Assembly (NCBI GenBank): GCA_016928495.1
Contig: JAFGKQ010000013.1
Coordinates: 1 to 7,424, forward strand
Reading direction: 5' to 3'
DNA: 7,424 nucleotides
From: Candidatus Fermentibacterales bacterium
GTDB taxonomy: Bacteria; Fermentibacterota; Fermentibacteria; Fermentibacterales; JAFGKQ01
In this document: positions 1-7,424 of the stretch, in pieces
Layout of the letters: every line of letters begins with the position of its first letter
How positions within the stretch are numbered: the first letter of the stretch is position 1
Position numbers and translations under genes: made by a program
The notes under the pieces: generated by a model
What the model saw: only the letters and a program-made list of their open reading frames with translations
Told to the model about the DNA's origin: nothing
Database searches by the model: none

Positions 1-448
1 CCAGGTCGGCAACGAAGGGAAGCCTCGAGATGGCGCGAAGCCACTCCGCAACGAGCTCCGGATCGTAGGGCTCGCCCGGCTCGATGTCCAGGTACCTGGT
101 CAGGGTCCGGGGTCTGGTCGTCTCGATGCCCTCGACCGTCACCTCCTCCAGGTTCGCGTGTCTTCCGGCGACGACCCGGGCGGAGAGCGTGTCCGTAGCC
201 GACAGGTAGCAGAACACCGAAGCGAATGGATAGCCCATCGTCAGGTACCACTCGAGGATCGCCTCCTGCAGATCGAGGACCAGAGAGTCCTCGAGAACAG
301 GCAGTGCATCCGGAATGCCCTGCTCGCCCCGATCGGGCAGCGGCGGCCCACCCTCCAGGAGCAGCGCGTACTCCGCCTCCGAAGCGACCTGACCGGACAG
401 AAGCAGCAGGGTCAGGGCCGCGGACGCCAGTCCCGGGATTCCGCCCAT
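1..448 (-). CDS. Omp85/TpsB-superfamily outer-membrane protein, N-terminal part (POTRA region), 3' end outside window
   Basis: The frame starts at ATG (448-446), shares one base with the stop of the barrel gene (TGATG), and runs off the left edge after 149 complete codons. Residues 1-23 look like a signal peptide (MGGIPGLASAALTLLLLSG, then Q-V-A-S). A spacer of about 35 residues follows. Residues 58-100 resemble the second half of a POTRA domain: a helix, then 'LTMGYPFASV' (the usual 'Y...GYp.a.v'). Residues 100-149 start another POTRA: strand 'LEEVTVEGIE', 'LTRYLDIEPGEPYDPELV', then a helix ending in 'ISRLPFVADL'. In known families (BamA, TamA, TpsB/FhaC) POTRA domains sit in the periplasm in front of a 16-strand barrel that inserts or exports proteins; the barrel here would lie beyond the window. 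Only a weak ribosome-binding sequence (GAG, 6 nt upstream) is present, so translation is probably coupled to the barrel gene. Which Omp85 subfamily it belongs to cannot be told. Confidence 0.78.
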   Translation of the reverse strand, partial: MGGIPGLASAALTLLLLSGQVASEAEYALLLEGGPPLPDRGEQGIPDALPVLEDSLVLDLQEAILEWYLTMGYPFASVFCYLSATDTLSARVVAGRHANLEEVTVEGIETTRPRTLTRYLDIEPGEPYDPELVAEWLRAISRLPFVADL

Positions 449-3400
449 CAGAAGCTCAGGGTCCCGGTGAGGCCACCGTTGTGCGTCCAGTCCGAGCCGG
501 CCAGTTGCCTTCCGCTGTAGAACGCGCTGATCTCCAGGCCCGATCCCATGCGCCTTCCAACGCGGAGATAGGGTCGGAGGGACAGCCCGGCGTCAGCCAG
601 GTCGAAAAACCATGCCGGCAGGTCATTCGACCCGGTCCCGGAAACGATGTAGGACAACCCGAACTGCCCGTTGAAGCTCCAGCCTCCGCCCCTCAGGAGG
701 CCATGCGGCATCAGCTCGTACATGTCCGCGGCCAGATCGAGCCCATCGTCCCGTCTGGTCTCCCAGCCGAGCAGGCTCCCTAGCTCGAGCGATCCGTCCG
801 GCAGGTACGACGGGTCCAGCTCGAGGCGCACTCCCCTGAGGTCCCTGGGCTCGTAGAAGTCCTCGGTCTCCCTCGAGACCGCAGCAGACGCCTCGAGCCT
901 CAGCGTGGGGGCAGGACGTGCCACCGGCCCGACCTCGAGTCTCCAACCCTGCCGGTAGCGTCTGCCTGCGCCGGCATAGGCCGCGGTCTCGAACCAGATC
1001 TCGGCCCTTCCACCGAGTCTCCTCAGCAGGCCCTCGTTCCACTGGACCCAGGGGGACAGGCTCACCGACCTGCTCGCAGTGCCCGATTCCCGGTTCCTCA
1101 GGGCGTCGAGGAGCAGGAGCGTCCGCAGGCGCCCCGAATCCCCGCTGTTGGCAAGCCCTATTCCGGCATCGACGCCGGACGAGCTGCTGAGGTTCGCAGA
1201 AAGGTTGAGATCCAGGCTGGCCTGGACCACAAGGTCGCCCTCCTCGCCGCTGGCGTAGTACTTCTCGTAATCTCCGTCGGGATCGGGGTACCAGGTTCCC
1301 GTGCCCTCGTCGTAGCTGTAGTCTCCCTCGCCTTCCCCAACGTACCTGTAACGGACCTCTATCTCCCTGGCCAGCACTCCGGACCCGCTGTAGATCATCT
1401 GAGCCCAGCCGAGACTACCGCTCGTCGAGCACCGCACGGAGATGGCGTCAGCCGAGACGGAGCCACCACCCGGGTAGAAGCTCTCCGAGTGCTCGAAGCT
1501 GGCGGAGCCGGCTCCTACTCCCTGGGCAGAGGCCGAAGCCTCCATTGCCGCCCTGAGGGTCCTCTCGGGCCTGGGCTGTCCGTCTCCGCTTCTGCCGTCA
1601 GTCTCGAGCTCGATGCTGAGATCGCCCGCCAGCCCGCGTCCGGAGGATGATGACAACCCCACGCCGGCCACCGAGACGTAGCCCTCGAGGCTATCTGCCC
1701 AGGCGTCCCTCTGAAGCGTGAAGGAAGCGCGCGGCGTCAGCCTTCCCAGGCAGTAGTCGACTGCTGCGGCGCCCCTGGTTCTACTGCCGGCGGCCATGCT
1801 CATGGTCTCGGACCTCTCGTTGATGCTTCCGAGAAGCCGCAGGCCGGCCGGTCCCGGACTGAGCTCGAGGCTTGTCCTCGCCCTCGAGAGCCTTCCGCCC
1901 GAGGATAGCGATCTCCAGCCGGCAGAGCCTGTCAGGAATCTGCTGACGATCGCTGCCTCGGCGATGTCGTCCGCGGAGGAGTAACCGGCGGGAAGGGCCC
2001 AGGAGGCCAGCGAGCTATCCGCCTCCAGTCTGCCGGGCGATCTGAAGCCGTCCGTCCCTATCTGCAGCACGGCAGAGACGACCGGCCCGGAATCACCGAA
2101 AGGGGTGAGACGGGCGCTGGAGCGAACGCAGGTGCCCGACCTGGTAGTGATGTCGCTGGCCAGGATGTTGTCGCTCCTTCGCGAGACCGCGGCCTCCGTC
2201 TCCAGATTGAGAGCGCCCGCGTCCAGGCCCAGCAGGAAGGCTGCCGCTTCGTGGCTCTCGGGAAGGGCGAGGTAGCGTCTCGGGAGATGGGTCCCCTGCT
2301 CCTCGCCGGCCCAGGAGTATCCGCCCGTGAACGAGTCGTAGACGTAGTCCCCGGGAGCCTCCGGCGGTCTGCTGAAGAAGACCCTCCAGGAGCCGTTGCC
2401 CGGCCCCACGTAGAGGAAGTGCCCGAGGCTGTCCAGATCGTAGGATCCCTCGCCATCGCCGACGAGCTCCCCTCCGAAGACGTAGGCGCTGTCGCTCTCG
2501 CCCCCGGCAGCCTCGAGTGCCTGCAGAGCCTCCTCATCCAGAGAGAAGCCGATCGGGTCTCCGGTGTCATCGCTCTCGGAGAGACCGGCGGCGCCGATCC
2601 GCAGGCCTTCCCCGGCGTTCCAGCAGACATCGCCGGTGAAAAGGTCCCTCCTGTAGCCATCCGTCTGTCTGGCGAAGTAGGCCTCGACCCTCTGCTCTCG
2701 CCTTATCAGCCTCGCCGGGGTAAAGGTTATCGCGCCGGCCGAGTAGTCCATCGTGTAGTCCCTCGTTACGCCCCTGCTCAGCAGGGCCCCGTCGAGGTAC
2801 ACGATCTCGCTTCCCGGGGCGATCCCGCCGCTGGGCACCAGGTCGTAGGGACCCTGAACGCCCTCCGACGTGTGGAAGACCGCGCTTCCGGTGCGGTCGC
2901 CAGCGATAGCGTAGCCCCCGGATAGCCCCATGGCGCCGGTCTCGAGTCCGGCTTCGATCCCGGAGACCTCCCTGTCCCAGCTCAGAGGCGCGGGGCCATC
3001 CCTGGACCAGTCCATGTCGCCCAGACGGGCGTGATAGTCGGGACCGTACAGCCCGAGCGAAACCCGGTCCAGCTCGCTGAGGAGCTCGGAGGAGCCGGAA
3101 CCGAGAGGCAGGTTCTCGTCCGTCAGCTCGCCGGAGACCCTGACGTCCGGGGCGAGGTTGCCGCTAATGGAGAGCCTGAGGGCCTGGTCGAGGCCCCCAT
3201 CGTCCCCGAGCGAGATGCCGAGCCTCTTCTGGCCGGAGATGTAGAGGCCCGGTGGACCCTGCTCGCTCCCGGAGAACCCGAGTGGCAGGATCGAGTCCAG
3301 GTCGACCGGCTCGGTCTCGAGCGGCCGCAGGTCGAGCCTCCTGAAGGACGCCACGCTGAGGGGAGCCCGATCGAAGACGAAGGTGACCAGAGTGCCATTC

Positions 3401-3594
3401 TCCGCTGCCTCGGGAAGGACCAGCCCCAGCCTCGATCCCCTGGCCTCGACGAGAACGCCGACGGTGTCCTCACCGATCACCGCCATGGCAGTGCCGGGAA
3501 CCACCCAGATGGAATCCGGCAGGCTGCAGAACCCCGAGCCATCGCTCGGCCACTCCAGGCTGAATCCGAGCAGCAGAGGCACAAGAAGGCTCAC
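448..3594 (-). CDS. Large outer-membrane beta-barrel-type protein (1048 aa), SprA-reminiscent motifs, function unknown
   Basis: The chosen start is GTG at 3594, which overlaps the previous stop as GTGA and begins a signal-like segment (MSLLVPLLLGFSLEW). The frame stays open to an ATG at 3966, but that extension of 124 residues is Arg/Gly/Pro-rich and lies entirely over the upstream gene, so it is a shadow. Residues 22-105 form a small beta-rich domain. Residues 116-195 carry 'LYISGQKRLGISLG', 'LDQALRLSISGNLAPDV', 'SGELTDENLPL', 'ELDRVSLGLYGP' and 'ARLGDMDW'. Residues 257-308 carry 'GIAPGSEIVYLDGALLSRG', 'DYTMDYSAGAITFTPARLI' and 'VEAYFAR'. From about 450 on, alternating polar/aromatic strands with Ser/Gly-rich turns continue to a terminal Phe (TGTLSF), as in barrels inserted by BamA. 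I associate these motifs with large, unnamed outer-membrane proteins of FCB-type bacteria; the 'DY..DY..G.itF' unit also recalls SprA/Sov, which is roughly 2400 residues. There is no plug or TonB box that I can see. The signal for outer-membrane location is good; the function is unknown. Confidence 0.82.
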   Translation of the reverse strand: MSLLVPLLLGFSLEWPSDGSGFCSLPDSIWVVPGTAMAVIGEDTVGVLVEARGSRLGLVLPEAAENGTLVTFVFDRAPLSVASFRRLDLRPLETEPVDLDSILPLGFSGSEQGPPGLYISGQKRLGISLGDDGGLDQALRLSISGNLAPDVRVSGELTDENLPLGSGSSELLSELDRVSLGLYGPDYHARLGDMDWSRDGPAPLSWDREVSGIEAGLETGAMGLSGGYAIAGDRTGSAVFHTSEGVQGPYDLVPSGGIAPGSEIVYLDGALLSRGVTRDYTMDYSAGAITFTPARLIRREQRVEAYFARQTDGYRRDLFTGDVCWNAGEGLRIGAAGLSESDDTGDPIGFSLDEEALQALEAAGGESDSAYVFGGELVGDGEGSYDLDSLGHFLYVGPGNGSWRVFFSRPPEAPGDYVYDSFTGGYSWAGEEQGTHLPRRYLALPESHEAAAFLLGLDAGALNLETEAAVSRRSDNILASDITTRSGTCVRSSARLTPFGDSGPVVSAVLQIGTDGFRSPGRLEADSSLASWALPAGYSSADDIAEAAIVSRFLTGSAGWRSLSSGGRLSRARTSLELSPGPAGLRLLGSINERSETMSMAAGSRTRGAAAVDYCLGRLTPRASFTLQRDAWADSLEGYVSVAGVGLSSSSGRGLAGDLSIELETDGRSGDGQPRPERTLRAAMEASASAQGVGAGSASFEHSESFYPGGGSVSADAISVRCSTSGSLGWAQMIYSGSGVLAREIEVRYRYVGEGEGDYSYDEGTGTWYPDPDGDYEKYYASGEEGDLVVQASLDLNLSANLSSSSGVDAGIGLANSGDSGRLRTLLLLDALRNRESGTASRSVSLSPWVQWNEGLLRRLGGRAEIWFETAAYAGAGRRYRQGWRLEVGPVARPAPTLRLEASAAVSRETEDFYEPRDLRGVRLELDPSYLPDGSLELGSLLGWETRRDDGLDLAADMYELMPHGLLRGGGWSFNGQFGLSYIVSGTGSNDLPAWFFDLADAGLSLRPYLRVGRRMGSGLEISAFYSGRQLAGSDWTHNGGLTGTLSF
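1255..1344 (-). repeat. Protein-level repeat copy 3: 'VGEGEGDYSYDEGTG' motif
   Basis: This encodes residues 751-780, reading 'YVGEGEGDYSYDEGTGTWY' and then 'PDPDGDYEKYY'. It is the fullest copy, joining the V-G-x-G-E-G start seen in copy 1 to the G-D-Y-x-Y-D-x-x-T-G core seen in copy 2. It sits between barrel-like strands ('LAREIEVRYR' before, 'GDLVVQASLDLNLSANL' after), so it is probably a long acidic loop; the many Asp and Glu could bind Ca2+ (inference). Confidence 0.55.
2299..2352 (-). repeat. Protein-level repeat copy 2: 'GDYVYDxxTGxY' motif
   Basis: This encodes residues 415-432, 'GDYVYDSFTGGYSWAGEE', only 11 residues after the end of copy 1 (which ends at residue 403). The G-D-Y-x-Y-D-x-x-T-G-x-Y/W pattern is shared with the copy near residue 757. 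It lacks the leading V-G-x-G-E-G, so it is a partial match. Confidence 0.45.
2386..2466 (-). repeat. Protein-level repeat copy 1: 'VGxGEGxYxxD' motif
   Basis: This encodes residues 377-403 of the barrel protein: 'LVGDGEGSYDLDSLGHF' followed by 'LYVGPGNGSW'. It matches the copy at residues 751-780 ('YVGEGEGDYSYDEGTGTWY') in the pattern V-G-x-G-E-G-x-Y-x-x-D-x-x-G, six to eight residues before a second Gly/Pro-rich turn. The DNA itself is not obviously repeated; the similarity is in the protein. Confidence 0.55.
2671..2853 (-). other. Conserved 'G...lDG..L.rG..DYt.DY..G.itFt' module in the barrel protein
   Basis: This segment encodes residues 248-308 of the 1048-residue protein. Key positions are Gly-Pro-Tyr at 248-250, 'GSEIVYLDGALLSRG' at 261-275, Asp-Tyr at 279-280, Asp-Tyr at 283-284, Gly287, 'ITFT' at 289-292, and the strand 'QRVEAYFAR' at 301-309. 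The spacing of two Asp-Tyr pairs followed by Gly and a Thr/Phe strand is the part I recognise best from large FCB outer-membrane proteins and SprA-like proteins. It is most likely an extracellular or periplasmic beta-sandwich between the N-terminal domain and the barrel. The family resemblance is from memory, not a search. Confidence 0.5.
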
Positions 3595-4352
3595 GGCAGC
3601 ACCGTCAGAGAGTTGCCGGCGCCGCAGACGGCCGCGATTCGGCCCGATGGAGACACCGCAACTCCGCTGAGCCCGCTGATGCCAGTGCCCACGAGCGAGT
3701 CCTGCGGCAGGAAGAGGAGCTGCGACTCCTCCCCTTCGAGCAGGAGGACGAAGCCGCGGGCCCAGGACGCTGCGTCTACCGCCCCGCCCGAGTGGACCTT
3801 CTCCGGAGGCTCCCCCGGAGAGAACAGCCACGCGGCGCCATCGCAGCAGGCCAGCCCGGAGCCCCTCCAGCAGGCGAGCCTGCCGATCCGGCAGGGCTCC
3901 AGGTCGACAAGCCCGAAGTCGGGAAGCTCCGCGTCCACGACCATCCCCTGATCCGCGAGCAGGCACCAGAGCCCGATCCCCTGAAGAGCGATCGCGGTCG
4001 GCCTGCCATCGAGAGGGATCTCCTCCAGGAGCCCCCCCTCAGAGTCGTATCGCAGGATTCTGTCTCCAACGGGATCCGAGACGTAGTATCCGCCTCCGGG
4101 GATCCTGGCCATGCCTCCGGGGACCGGGACCTCCATCAGGTCGGCCGAGCCCGTCATCTCTCCCTCGGAGACGATCACGAGATGCGGAAGATTGGCGCAG
4201 AGAAGAAAGAGCCTCTCTTCATCCGGCGACCAGCAGACATCGACGATCGGAGAGCCCGCCTCGAAGATGGGCGCAGGGGGCCCGCCGGGCGCAAGGGCGG
4301 CACTCAGGAGCAGGCTAGCGAACCAGAGCGATCTTGCCTGTCCCGGCCGCAT
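3591..4352 (-). CDS. Small exported NHL/WD-type beta-propeller-like protein, cysteine-rich
   Basis: This gives 253 residues from ATG at 4352. I chose that start because it begins a typical signal peptide (MRPGQARSLWFASLLLSAAL, then A-P-G-G). The frame stays open upstream, but only as a Ser/Arg/Thr-rich shadow of the peptidase gene. Propeller-like units are visible: 'PIVDVCWSPDEERLFLLCAN' (35-54, like a TolB/WD strand pair), 'GGGYYVSDPVGDRILRYDSE' (86-105, NHL-like), 'ARGFVLLLEGEESQLLFLP' (198-216) and 'SGVAVSPSGRIAAVCGAGN' (229-247). About five blades would fit. Eight cysteines lie at 40, 52, 130, 154, 161, 169, 170 and 243, which is many for so small a protein and would suit disulfides in the periplasm or outside. 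No catalytic motif, lipobox or sorting tail is seen. It overlaps the peptidase gene by 38 nt and ends inside the GTGA that starts the barrel gene, so its role is probably tied to one of them. The function is unknown. Confidence 0.75.
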   Translation of the reverse strand: MRPGQARSLWFASLLLSAALAPGGPPAPIFEAGSPIVDVCWSPDEERLFLLCANLPHLVIVSEGEMTGSADLMEVPVPGGMARIPGGGYYVSDPVGDRILRYDSEGGLLEEIPLDGRPTAIALQGIGLWCLLADQGMVVDAELPDFGLVDLEPCRIGRLACWRGSGLACCDGAAWLFSPGEPPEKVHSGGAVDAASWARGFVLLLEGEESQLLFLPQDSLVGTGISGLSGVAVSPSGRIAAVCGAGNSLTVLP

Positions 4353-6015
4353 TTCCCTGCGTGAGGCGGAAGAAGTAGACCCCGGTGCTGAGGCTCTCCG
4401 CTCCGGAGTACTCGAGAAGCGCCTGCCCGGCCTGAACCGTCCCGAAATCGACCGTATGGACGTGACTTCCCTCCAGATCGAACAACGCGAGCTGAACGGG
4501 CCCGCCGTTCGACTCGAACTCGAAGAAGACGGAACCGAGGCTGGGGTTGGGATAGACGAGGATCTGGTCGTCGGAGCCGGCCTGCAGGGCATCGTCGGCA
4601 GCGACCTCGAGCATGAGGCCGAAATCCGAGTTGGCGAAGAGCAGCATGTCGCAGGAGTCGGGCATGGCGGCAGCGAGCTGCATGCCTGTCCCGGTCTGCA
4701 GCCGCTCCACCGCGACCGACCCGTCCGGGCCCCGCGAGACCCTGTAGGCCGAGAGCTCGCCGAGCCCCTCGGCGCTCGCCCTGAGGCTTCCCTCCCCGGT
4801 AGAGGGCAGCAGACCGTAGTAGTCTCCGGTCCTGGGCAGGATCTCGTGCTGCCTGTGGATGGCCGGCAGGCTGTCCACGAGCAGGGAGTAGTCGAGGCCA
4901 CGGCGCCCCCCCTGTCCCATGGGATCGAAGTCGGCGATCCTGAAGGACTCGTAGCCGTAGAGGCCGCCGCAGACGTCCGGGTCGTCCACCCAGTTCGCGA
5001 CCAGCCAGTCCTCGAGGATCGAGTCCAGATCCACGGAGCCGCCGATTGCCGATTCGATGGAGCGCTGGAGCCCTTCCAGGCCCCTCTCCCCGGAATGCAG
5101 GCTGTTCCAGAGAAACCGGCTCCCTCCGTAGTTCTCGTAGATGTAGGCGAAGAACAGGTAGCCCGCGCCGTAGCCGGCGACGTAGCGGTAGTCGTCTTCG
5201 TAGCTCGTCCAGCCAAGAGGGCTCACTCCGCCGACCTCCAGGAAGGTGGCCACCTGCTCGACCTTGTAGCCGCACACGAACGGACCGGATTGCGCCTGGT
5301 TCTCGATGACCCAGAGCTCCTCGCCGCTGAAGGGCCTGATGCCCCACTGGATCAGATGCACCAGCTCGTGAGCGGAGACGTAGATCGCGTCATCCAGGTC
5401 CGCCGGATCGCAGTCTATGTACAGCATCTCGACCTCGTTCGAGTGACCGCCGTAGATGAACCTGGCCTCGTAGTCGGTGAACTGGTTGTAAGGCGAGAAG
5501 TAACCGAGGATCGTCAGGTTGCTCTGGACCGGGTCCCTTATGTCCAGGACCAGGAAGTAGACCCTCGGGTCGCCGTCGATCTCGTCGGGAATGGCTCCGA
5601 ACGTCGCCTCGTCCACTCCTACGATACCTCCGCTGTCAGCAGGCGTGGACTGCTCCAGAGCGAGGGCGAGGGCGTCAACGTCTTCCTGGTCGAAGCTGGT
5701 GTTCCATACGTAGTCCTCGACGAATACATAGGTCCTCTCGCCAACGTGCCTGCACGTGGCGGAGAGCAGGTAGAATGTGCCGTAGACCGGGTCGTCGGAG
5801 AAGTCCTGCGCCCAGAAGCTCACGCGATCGCCCACCTGGTGCCCCCCGGCTGTGGCGAGCGGTCCGCTCGGCTGAATGGCAGGATCGTGCCTTGACGTGA
5901 TCTCCATTACCCTGGGGTCCAGGAAGGTCCCGTCGATCGGCAGTCTGGCGGAGGTGGCCGCAGCTGGGAGAAGGAGCATTGCGACGAGGCCCGCCGCCCG
6001 GATGCGCAGCGCCAT
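4315..6015 (-). CDS. Secreted HExxH (gluzincin-type) metallopeptidase, M30/hyicolysin-like, with C-terminal sorting tail
   Basis: This gives 566 residues from ATG at 6015, one base after the previous stop, with GAGG 7 nt upstream. A signal peptide covers about residues 1-23 (MALRIRAAGLVAMLLLPAAA). Residues 60-160 form an N-terminal domain ('VGDRVSFWAQDF', 'RVYFLVLDIRD') like that preceding M30-type catalytic domains. Residues 170-175 (LGYFSP) and 193-203 (NEVEMLYIDCD) lead to the zinc motif 'AHELVHLIQW': H216, E217 and H220. E238 in 'EELWVIENQAQ', 18 residues after H220, is the probable third zinc ligand. The helical region after it ('GAGYLFFAYIYENYGGSRFL', 'LEDWLVANWVDD') also fits the family. 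Residues 486-566 are a PNP-type sorting tail. The protein should hydrolyse peptides outside the cell or on its surface. The oddity is that E238 is followed by Asn-Gln-Ala-Gln, where the family usually has Gly-Leu-Ala-Glu. Peptidase identity is well supported; the exact family assignment less so. Confidence 0.85.
   Translation of the reverse strand: MALRIRAAGLVAMLLLPAAATSARLPIDGTFLDPRVMEITSRHDPAIQPSGPLATAGGHQVGDRVSFWAQDFSDDPVYGTFYLLSATCRHVGERTYVFVEDYVWNTSFDQEDVDALALALEQSTPADSGGIVGVDEATFGAIPDEIDGDPRVYFLVLDIRDPVQSNLTILGYFSPYNQFTDYEARFIYGGHSNEVEMLYIDCDPADLDDAIYVSAHELVHLIQWGIRPFSGEELWVIENQAQSGPFVCGYKVEQVATFLEVGGVSPLGWTSYEDDYRYVAGYGAGYLFFAYIYENYGGSRFLWNSLHSGERGLEGLQRSIESAIGGSVDLDSILEDWLVANWVDDPDVCGGLYGYESFRIADFDPMGQGGRRGLDYSLLVDSLPAIHRQHEILPRTGDYYGLLPSTGEGSLRASAEGLGELSAYRVSRGPDGSVAVERLQTGTGMQLAAAMPDSCDMLLFANSDFGLMLEVAADDALQAGSDDQILVYPNPSLGSVFFEFESNGGPVQLALFDLEGSHVHTVDFGTVQAGQALLEYSGAESLSTGVYFFRLTQGNAAGTGKIALVR
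4318..4560 (-). other. C-terminal type A-like sorting domain (T9SS / FlgD-like fold) of the metallopeptidase
   Basis: This encodes residues 486-566: 'LVYPNPSLGSVFFEF', then 'VQLALFDLEGSHVHTVDFG', 'AGQALLEYSG', 'LSTGVYFFRLTQG' and a final 'GTGKIALVR'. The order (PNP turn, 'v.l.lFD..G..v', 'l.tGvYf.rl..g', a terminal K-x-x-x-x-R strand) is that of type IX secretion sorting domains and the related FlgD-like Ig fold. In Bacteroidota such tails direct proteins through the SprA translocon to the surface. Confidence 0.8.
4355..4358 (-). promoter_or_regulatory. Weak, closely spaced ribosome-binding site of the small propeller gene
   Basis: AGGG on the minus strand lies only 2 nt before the ATG at 4352, too close for a good site. 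Translation of this gene may depend largely on coupling to the peptidase gene that covers it. The start is chosen on the signal peptide rather than on this site. Confidence 0.3.
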
Positions 6016-6016
6016 C

Positions 6017-6706
6017 TCAGAACCTCGTCCCCACCATTATGCGGACGGAGGACATGTCGTAGCAGTCCGGGAAATCGATGGAAGCGTAGAGACTCGCCCT
6101 TCTGTCATCCAGCAGGGCTGCGTCGATGGCACTGATGGCGCGGTTGACCAGCGCGAAGGCAGCTATGTACAGGCTCCGCCTGAACCAGAGCCTGCTCACC
6201 CTGTAGAGGTCCCTGAACTCGAGCATGGCAGACTCGGACGACCAGCTCCACGAATCCGCACCGTATCTGGCGTGTGACTCGTAGTATTCGCGCTGCCTGT
6301 CCGGGTCGTCCGGGTAGTAGTACCTCGCCAGCCGCCTCACGTAGTCGTTGTACTCGTCGCTCGACATGAAGTCACCGATGTCCTCGAGGAAATCGTGGGG
6401 CCTGCCTCTCACGGACAGCCCGGCCTCCTCCAGGGCCAGCGAAACGTAGTCGTCCCTGTTGAAGCTGCCTTCGAGGTAGGAGAGGCCAACGCCGGCCCAG
6501 GTCGCGATCTCGAGGCCAAGGAAGACGTTGCCGAGACCTCCGTGCCCCAGGTGGTGCTGACCCCAGCCCGGGAGAGCCACTGACCTGAGAACCGCGCCCC
6601 TGTTGGACACCGCCAGGGCCGCACAGGGAAGCACCAGCGCGAGCACCAGGATCAGAGGGATCAGGGACGTGCCGGCGGATCTCCTCTCAGTCGACCACTG
6701 CGGCAT
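6017..6706 (-). CDS. Exported DUF5683-like protein, function unknown
   Basis: This gives 229 residues from ATG at 6706, with GGAG 7 nt upstream; the start lies within the last codons of the previous gene (20-nt overlap). A hydrophobic segment at 14-32 ('SLIPLILVLALVLPCAALA') is a signal peptide. The Cys at 28 follows Pro, so it is not a good lipobox. 'LRSVALPGWGQHHLGHGGLG' (40-59) matches the 'RS...PGwGQ.y.g....g' start that I know from DUF5683 proteins. It is followed by a hydrophobic stretch (60-77) and, near the end, 'YRVSRLWFRRSLYIAAFALV' (168-187) plus 'ISAIDAALL', like that family's second hydrophobic hairpin ending in 'DA'. Between them, residues 83-165 form a charged, Tyr-rich insert that is longer than I would expect. 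The C-terminus ends in Arg-Phe. DUF5683 proteins are common in FCB genomes and uncharacterised. It is likely an envelope protein; its partner could be any of the neighbours. Confidence 0.75.
   Translation of the reverse strand: MPQWSTERRSAGTSLIPLILVLALVLPCAALAVSNRGAVLRSVALPGWGQHHLGHGGLGNVFLGLEIATWAGVGLSYLEGSFNRDDYVSLALEEAGLSVRGRPHDFLEDIGDFMSSDEYNDYVRRLARYYYPDDPDRQREYYESHARYGADSWSWSSESAMLEFRDLYRVSRLWFRRSLYIAAFALVNRAISAIDAALLDDRRASLYASIDFPDCYDMSSVRIMVGTRF
6023..6026 (-). promoter_or_regulatory. Ribosome-binding site of the metallopeptidase gene
   Basis: GAGG on the minus strand, 7 nt before the ATG at 6015, formed by the last codons of the DUF5683-like gene (Gly-Thr-Arg-Phe). The good spacing supports the start at 6015. 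Confidence 0.55.
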
Positions 6707-7424
6707 GGAATAGCTCCGTTCCTCTGCCCGAGGAGTTCTCGATCTCCAGGGTCACGAAGTAGACACCGGAGGCAAGGTCGGAGGCGTCCCACCCGACCTC
6801 ACAGGGCAGGCCACCGGCCGCTGCGCCCTGGCTCTCGCTCACCAGCTCCCCGGCCATGTTGAACGCCCTGATCTCATAACCGCAGTCCGCCACCGGGATG
6901 AACCGGATGGTCGCCGATCCGTCGAGGACCGGATTGGGATAGACGAAGAAGCTGCCATCCTCCAGAAAGCAGGATCCGCCGGACTGACCGGGGAGAGGAG
7001 GCAGGTCCTCGGGCCACCAGCAGTTCTCCAGCCCGGTTGCCAGCCAGGTCGCCCAGCCGCCCGGTGGGCTGGCGCTGGTTCTCCAGCCGCAAACGAACCC
7101 TGACGGATCGCAGGCGAACAGCTCGAGCTGGCCGTCGCCCTCGAGGTCCACGAGCAGCGGAGACCCGGCCGGATCGTCGCCCACTGACAGCGGGAATCCC
7201 GGAACCAGGTCGCCATCGCCGTTCCAGAGCATGATCCTCCCATCCCGGAGGAAGCACAGAGCCAGGCCCGGCCCACCGGAGGCGCGATTGCCGGGCTCGA
7301 ATCCTCCGGATAGCAGGGTGTCGCACTCGACGAGCCTCGGCCAGTCGGTCAGCACAGCTCCCGAAGCCTCGATCGCTGCGGCGCCCCCGTCCGTCTCGAG
7401 AAGGATCTCGAGGTATCCGTCCTC
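6687..7424 (-). CDS. Secreted FG-GAP/VCBS-like propeller protein with C-terminal sorting tail, 5' end outside window
   Basis: The frame is open from the right edge, giving 245 residues. A GTG at 7355 could be read as a start, but the residues before it ('EDGYLEILLETDGGAAAIEA') continue the same repeat, so the gene almost certainly begins outside. Repeat units: 'DGYLEILLETDGG...VLTDWP' (2-29), and 'DGRIMLWNGDGDLVPGFPLS' (61-80) followed by 'GSPLLVDLEGDGQLELFACD' (87-106) and 'GFVCGW'. These follow the pattern 'G.v.vWn.dG..v.GfPl...... sPl..Dl.gDG..E' of FG-GAP/VCBS propellers, which often bind Ca2+ through the D-x-x-G-D-G loop and serve in adhesion or binding. Residues 160-245 form a sorting tail. 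No catalytic domain is visible in this part; one might lie upstream. This is the first gene of the visible cluster. Confidence 0.8.
   Translation of the reverse strand, partial: EDGYLEILLETDGGAAAIEASGAVLTDWPRLVECDTLLSGGFEPGNRASGGPGLALCFLRDGRIMLWNGDGDLVPGFPLSVGDDPAGSPLLVDLEGDGQLELFACDPSGFVCGWRTSASPPGGWATWLATGLENCWWPEDLPPLPGQSGGSCFLEDGSFFVYPNPVLDGSATIRFIPVADCGYEIRAFNMAGELVSESQGAAAGGLPCEVGWDASDLASGVYFVTLEIENSSGRGTELFHAAVVD
6690..6947 (-). other. C-terminal type A-like sorting domain of the propeller protein
   Basis: This encodes residues 160-245: 'FVYPNPVLDGSATIRF', then 'YEIRAFNMAGELVSES', 'CEVGWDASDLASGVYFVTLE' and an end 'TELFHAAVVD'. It has the same plan as the tail of the metallopeptidase two genes downstream (PNP turn, 'i.aFNm.Gelv', 'LasGVYfv'). 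However, the last strand lacks the usual Lys and terminal Arg, so it is a divergent version. It contains two Cys (181, 208), which could pair. Confidence 0.72.
6714..6717 (-). promoter_or_regulatory. Ribosome-binding site of the DUF5683-like gene
   Basis: GGAG on the minus strand, 7 nt before the ATG at 6706 and inside the coding region of the previous gene. It supports this start despite the 20-nt overlap. Confidence 0.6.

Follow-up and report, generated by a model that had tools for sequence, protein, structure and literature searches.

What is known of the type IX secretion system (T9SS) comes almost wholly from Bacteroidota. The described systems closest to the locus studied here are the T9SS attachment complex of that phylum (PorU-PorV-PorQ-PorZ), the T9SS translocon SprA/Sov, the BAM complex, in which BamA is accompanied by the BamB propeller, and other dedicated Omp85 proteins such as TamA/TamL and FhaC/ShlB. 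The SprA barrel is built from 36 strands (PMC10994853). Here we describe a 7,424-base stretch of DNA from a Candidatus Fermentibacterales bacterium (contig JAFGKQ010000013.1, the window in what follows), which is an entire contig (C318) of a genome that is 81% complete and split over 337 contigs. The window carries six genes (g1 to g6), and we read it with moderate confidence as the middle of a Fermentibacterota T9SS surface-processing operon that continues into an undescribed but conserved outer-membrane triad of a β-propeller (g4), a giant β-barrel (g5) and an Omp85-family protein (g6). The Omp85 protein would then be an insertase or scaffold for the barrel, and the barrel would act in a late step of the pathway. 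The operon, its conservation, and the families and folds of its products were established by computation, and in the open-licence literature on T9SS in Fermentibacterota or related candidate phyla we found no description of this operon.

All six genes lie on the minus strand. The first, g1 (6687-7424), is open at its 5’ end and encodes the C-terminal 245 residues of a secreted M6-like protein that has FG-GAP repeats and ends in a T9SS sorting domain of type A. It is followed by g2 (6017-6706), for a 229-residue exported protein with a weak likeness to DUF5683, and by g3 (4315-6015), whose 566-residue product has a zinc-protease-like HELVH motif and also a type A sorting domain. Of the triad, g4 (3591-4352) encodes the 253-residue propeller and g5 (448-3594), with a GTG start, the 1048-residue barrel, while g6 (2-448) is open at the contig end on its 3’ side and encodes the N-terminal 149 residues (signal peptide and POTRA domain) of an Omp85-family protein of ~440 residues. 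Neighbouring genes overlap by 20 nucleotides at g1/g2, 38 at g3/g4, 4 at g4/g5 (GTGA) and 1 at g5/g6, and a 1-nucleotide gap separates g2 from g3. The open reading frames and the sequence bear out this layout as it was given in an earlier first-pass annotation, which had also called five of the six products visibly exported. Judged by eye rather than by program, signal-peptide-like N-termini are present in g2, g3, g4 and g6, but that of g5 is short and weak. Within the window we found one promoter-like site, against 0.4 expected from shuffling, and one terminator-like site, against 2.2 expected.

An eight-gene operon runs past both ends of the window contig, its full order being porU - porV - M6-like - DUF5683-like - HExxH protein - propeller - giant barrel - Omp85. 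In the window’s own genome the front of this operon stands at the end of contig C208, where a PorU-like C25 protein of 1282 residues (C208:4843-8691) and a PorV of 344 residues (C208:8733-9767) directly precede the first 535 residues of the M6-like protein (C208:9784-11388), which breaks off where the contig stops. C79 opens with the rest of the Omp85 gene (C79:4-921), which has 50% identity to an orthologue. The ends of C208 and of the window contig share no overlapping sequence, and we infer the contiguity of the eight genes in this genome because they are contiguous in relatives. The two M6-like fragments belong to the same family, covering profile positions 41-547 (C208) and 863-1042 (g1); the C-terminal match of g1 to NF052323 is low (71.9 bits, cut-off 600) because the protein is partial, and a complete relative scores 332 bits. 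The PorU-like protein matches PF01364 at 187 bits and nearly the whole of NF033707 at 289 bits, short of its cut-off of 420. Its Gly-His-Gly and Ser-Cys-Ser catalytic sites in the C25 domain are intact, and porV begins 41 nucleotides downstream. PorV itself passes the cut-off of 90 for the PorV family model NF033709 (241 bits) and scores 179 bits with the PorV equivalog NF033710, below the cut-off of 250.

We compared gene order in Fermentibacterota by tblastn of the six window proteins against the contigs of relatives, and in every locus long enough to show the order it is g1-g2-g3-g4-g5-g6 on one strand. The short and variable g4 falls under the tblastn threshold in several loci, and an open reading frame of the right size is present where this was checked. 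Median spacings along g1-g6 in relatives are -1, -1, -11, -4 and -1 nucleotides, and the g4/g5 junction is a 4-nucleotide overlap in 16 of 18 loci. PorV and PorU lie upstream of g1 in Fermentibacterota loci that extend far enough, and in those read in detail an opposite-strand gene lies just downstream of Omp85. The tight packing, from which the first-pass annotation had suggested co-production, thus marks a real unit, with order and spacing kept through the order Fermentibacterales and with a link to type IX secretion. In Candidatus Sabulitectum silens JCC-6 (L078 / L037), frameshifts and stops interrupt several genes of the operon, which most probably reflects assembly quality.

The linkage extends beyond Fermentibacterota. 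In a second phylum (that of G050) we surveyed 21 loci with profiles built in this analysis, 19 of them informative in having enough upstream sequence. The barrel gene is followed by Omp85 in all 21, and M6-like and/or DUF5683-like genes lie upstream in 18 of the 19, usually together with PorV, the exception being L167. Nearly all neighbourhoods examined in this phylum follow the order PorV - M6-like - DUF5683-like (two copies) - propeller - barrel - Omp85. The HExxH gene is not part of this order, and g3 at this place is specific to Fermentibacterota. In a third phylum (that of G048), barrel then Omp85 was found in 10 of 13 loci, with a g4-sized gene 5’ of the barrel; a profile match identified it as g4 in four of these loci, and its position did so in others. 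Because the order recurs in the second phylum, including g1 and g2, and the triad recurs in the third, the linkage of g1, g2 and g4-g6 is old, and g3 is a Fermentibacterota addition.

The giant barrel has no match in a Pfam scan. Its AlphaFold model, made from 18 sequences, has ~38 strands running from residue 117 to the C-terminus at a pLDDT of 66 and a pTM of 0.46, and this moderate model supports the large barrel of the first-pass annotation. Foldseek searches with the model returned SlpA, SprA and TonB-dependent transporters, the SprA structures at E 2.5e-6 to 5e-5; with VIA-align many unrelated large barrels ranked alike and none was decisive. A search of PDB sequences with the barrel profile gave a chance match only, and a barrel-only scan of the genome contigs for close sequences found nothing. 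An alignment of 16 rows was too diverse for patterns, and a closer alignment was usable. The SprA model TIGR04189 scores 20.1-22.6 bits on g5, at positions 601-684 only, against a curated cut-off of 200. Profile comparison by hhalign of g5 with SprA of the same and related phyla gave one common segment, 82 columns long (probability 94%, P 1e-7); read off the profile alignment, it corresponds to roughly residues 690-790 of SprA from Flavobacterium johnsoniae. In relatives g5 is ~1030-1180 residues long, whereas the true SprA of the group has 1860-2180 and a length of ~1900-2400 residues is typical of SprA/Sov. We therefore rejected an identification of g5 as SprA, since it is below the TIGR04189 cut-off, has about half the length and is encoded in a genome with a separate SprA.

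Members of the barrel family were found in ~200 of the genomes searched: 38 of 42 in Fermentibacterota, and ~108 of 132, 39 of 39 and ~14 of 17 in three further phyla, counts that leave out genomes whose only match is the SprA segment. Many of the barrel-bearing genomes also have a separate SprA-sized match. Named relatives that carry the gene include Candidatus Fermentibacteria, Candidatus Aegiribacteria, candidate division Hyd24-12 and Candidatus Sabulitectum; close relatives of the gene lie in genomes of the window’s own order, which together with these names puts the source in Fermentibacterota. None of the members scanned is matched by Pfam, or by an NCBIfam model above its cut-off, and from model and profiles g5 is a predicted member of an undescribed family of giant outer-membrane barrels with one SprA-like segment.

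The POTRA domain of g6 is matched by PF07244 at 26.6 bits (cut-off 21.3, E 1e-5), and the Omp85 barrel domain PF01103 is matched in orthologues from two other phyla at 65.6 and 40.8 bits (cut-off 24); a Fermentibacterota orthologue reaches 16.1 bits, below this cut-off. The LRGY/VRGY motif is present in all five orthologues checked, the window copy being truncated. Full-length orthologues score 62-146 bits with the BamA model TIGR03303, short of the cut-off of 297, and we found no family-level match to models of dedicated Omp85 proteins (NF047950 and NF052279, ~11.6 bits). The barrel and Omp85 trees agree (Spearman correlation of distances 0.92 overall and 0.79-0.97 within phyla), although much of this correlation would arise from common species history by itself, and the agreement is that expected for co-inherited genes. 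The model of g4 (pLDDT 84.6, pTM 0.82) matches NHL domains and Pizza6 at Z ~25-26 over ~225 residues. PF01436 (NHL) is above cut-off in g4 orthologues, at up to 100 bits in another phylum, but not in the window protein, and the modelled fold is that of a six-bladed NHL-type β-propeller.

The sorting tails and the Omp85 partner named in the first-pass annotation are likewise matched above cut-off. The tail of g1 scores 28 bits with Por_Secre_tail (Pfam cut-off 27) and 25.6 with TIGR04183 (cut-off 23), and that of g3 scores 29.4 bits with TIGR04183. The HExxH motif of g3 is kept in all 25 orthologues compared; as an MXAN_6640 metalloprotease, g3 reaches 14 bits with NF045524 against a cut-off of 140. 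At its conserved position g2 shows 51-66% identity within the order; its place holds one or two copies in relatives, and a g2 relative from another phylum matches DUF5683 below cut-off (E 4e-4). The M6-like protein of this genome (L129:9784-11388, on C208) lacks HExxH, reading VYELCRQLGL where the nine relatives compared have HEFGH, and its sequence suggests a recently inactivated enzyme that is still kept in the operon. In the second phylum PorV is ~860-1050 residues long with an N-terminal propeller region (L163, L165, L170, L171, L174, L175, L178); the only one scanned (L165:32-2638) has a weak PorZ match (NF052228, E 9e-7) and resembles a fusion of a PorZ-type protein with PorV.

Other parts of type IX secretion are encoded elsewhere. 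The first-pass annotation had proposed a search of the same genome for T9SS genes, and SprA, PorV and a PorU-like protein were indeed found. SprA lies on C152, with its C-terminus probably on C193, and is present in nearly all relatives. At the Fermentibacterota SprA loci L038, L099, L100 and L103, SprA stands between a divergent LptF/G-permease-like pair and pilus-type ATPase-like genes (names assigned by eye from N-termini), apart from the por operon. Fourteen Peptidase_C25 matches above cut-off were found in the 2.3-Mb genome (C57, C136, C170, C71, C88, C45, C75, C93 and others), pointing to a rich set of gingipain-type proteases, and many tailed proteins are encoded outside the window. With these C25 and tailed proteins encoded elsewhere, the operon accounts for only part of the T9SS cargo of the genome. 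The suggestion in the first-pass annotation of a dedicated module of cargo, barrel and Omp85 survives as a conserved, T9SS-linked unit; cargo plus a dedicated channel does not follow from the data, because the known SprA is encoded elsewhere and the barrel scores below the SprA cut-off. Rather, with PorU and PorV upstream, the operon looks like the known T9SS attachment module with new parts.

We hypothesize that the type A tailed M6-like and HExxH proteins are co-produced surface substrates or accessory enzymes, and that cargo would leave the cell through the separately encoded SprA, be carried by PorV and undergo trimming or attachment by PorU, a C25 protease of sortase type. The Omp85 paralogue g6 may be the dedicated insertase or scaffold for g5, the NHL propeller g4 a periplasmic or membrane-attached partner of both, and the finished barrel an outer-membrane platform for a late step of the same pathway, such as cargo release or anchoring. 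It is from linkage that we infer an action of Omp85 on the barrel, of the barrel with PorU and PorV, and the step at which this would occur. More tentatively, the triad could be an undescribed outer-membrane machine conserved across several phyla, either a second large protein-conducting pore or a dedicated assembly and anchoring platform for the PorU/PorV branch of type IX secretion.

Several observations weigh against a late-step T9SS role. The third-phylum triad mostly has glgA-like genes as neighbours and no por genes, and the barrel was absent from four genomes of another phylum that does have SprA. In one Fermentibacterota genome that is 98% complete (G001, locus L049) the operon is present, but SprA has no clear match (TIGR04189 E 1.4e-4) and may be missing or unassembled. 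GldM (TIGR03517) was not matched in 60 genomes, which is not proof of absence as controls also gave no match; given SprA, PorU and PorV, either a very divergent motor or another energy source may be in use. The barrel model, too, is of moderate quality.

The main rival, which we regard as rather unlikely, is that the triad serves general outer-membrane biogenesis, with Omp85 and the propeller (compare BamA with BamB) assembling the barrel for a housekeeping task unrelated to T9SS and merely co-transcribed with porU-porV in two phyla. The first-pass annotation had pointed to gene order around barrel homologues as a check, and the upstream genes are not freely swapped in Fermentibacterota nor, g3 aside, in the second phylum; in the third phylum, however, the triad is separable from the por genes, so the linkage does not require a role in T9SS alone. 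The near-universal presence of the barrel in four phyla also fits a biogenesis function, as do the g4 orthologues, which are NHL propellers and in the second phylum mostly carry a lipobox-like site (judged partly by eye). Such a function accords less well with the strong, repeated linkage to PorV and the M6-like protein in two phyla and with the SprA-like segment of the barrel. Another reading, in which g5 would be a second translocon of SprA type dedicated to the operon’s tailed proteins and Omp85 would help to assemble it or take part in transport, appears improbable to us: the very large size of the barrel, a strand number near the 36 of SprA (PMC10994853), the common segment and the Foldseek matches to SprA speak for it, but TIGR04189 gives 20-23 bits against 200, whole-barrel likeness to SprA is not established as other large barrels score equally, a true SprA is present, and the genome has many more tailed or C25 proteins outside this operon. 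Finally, the plainer reading of the first-pass annotation, unrelated envelope genes packed in a genome with few promoters, is very improbable even though separate functions can be imagined for several members, since the same order through one order and in a second phylum contradicts it and the conserved order and spacing, with 1-4 nucleotide overlaps, led us to reject chance packing.

The operon accordingly marks an unannotated protein family, the giant barrel, tied to PorU/PorV and to a private Omp85, and offers a candidate set for missing late-step components of the T9SS pathway. It also bears on how cells insert barrels of more than 30 strands, and, on the strength of the triad’s linkage, points to an unstudied piece of outer-membrane machinery.

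Among known systems, TamA/TamL, FhaC/ShlB and other dedicated Omp85 proteins resemble g6 as Omp85 paralogues genetically tied to a client or partner gene, but they have no family-level match to it, and the partner here is a giant barrel rather than a passenger or autotransporter. The BAM complex likewise combines an Omp85 protein bearing POTRA domains and the LRGY motif with a β-propeller protein; in contrast, g6 is a second, shorter Omp85 below the BamA cut-off, its propeller is a six-bladed NHL type, and it has a fixed giant-barrel partner. The subunits reported for Bacteroidota BAM (BamG, H, M and P) are not the proteins seen here, and T9SS components did not co-purify with them (PMC12611786). 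Like SprA/Sov, g5 is a predicted very large outer-membrane barrel, and the two have one homologous segment of ~80 residues, but g5 is half the length, lacks a family-level match and is encoded besides a true SprA. In the T9SS attachment complex, as here, a type A-tailed PorU-type C25 protease adjoins a PorV-family carrier; type A tailed products are encoded in the same operon, and the second-phylum PorV, with its propeller region, weakly recalls PorZ. Unlike in that complex, PorU and PorV here do not reach the cut-offs of the Bacteroidota equivalog models, and the operon goes on to encode the propeller, the undescribed giant barrel and the Omp85 paralogue. That PorU and PorV are linked to tailed proteins is a known T9SS attachment theme, and what is new is the fixed addition of these three genes.

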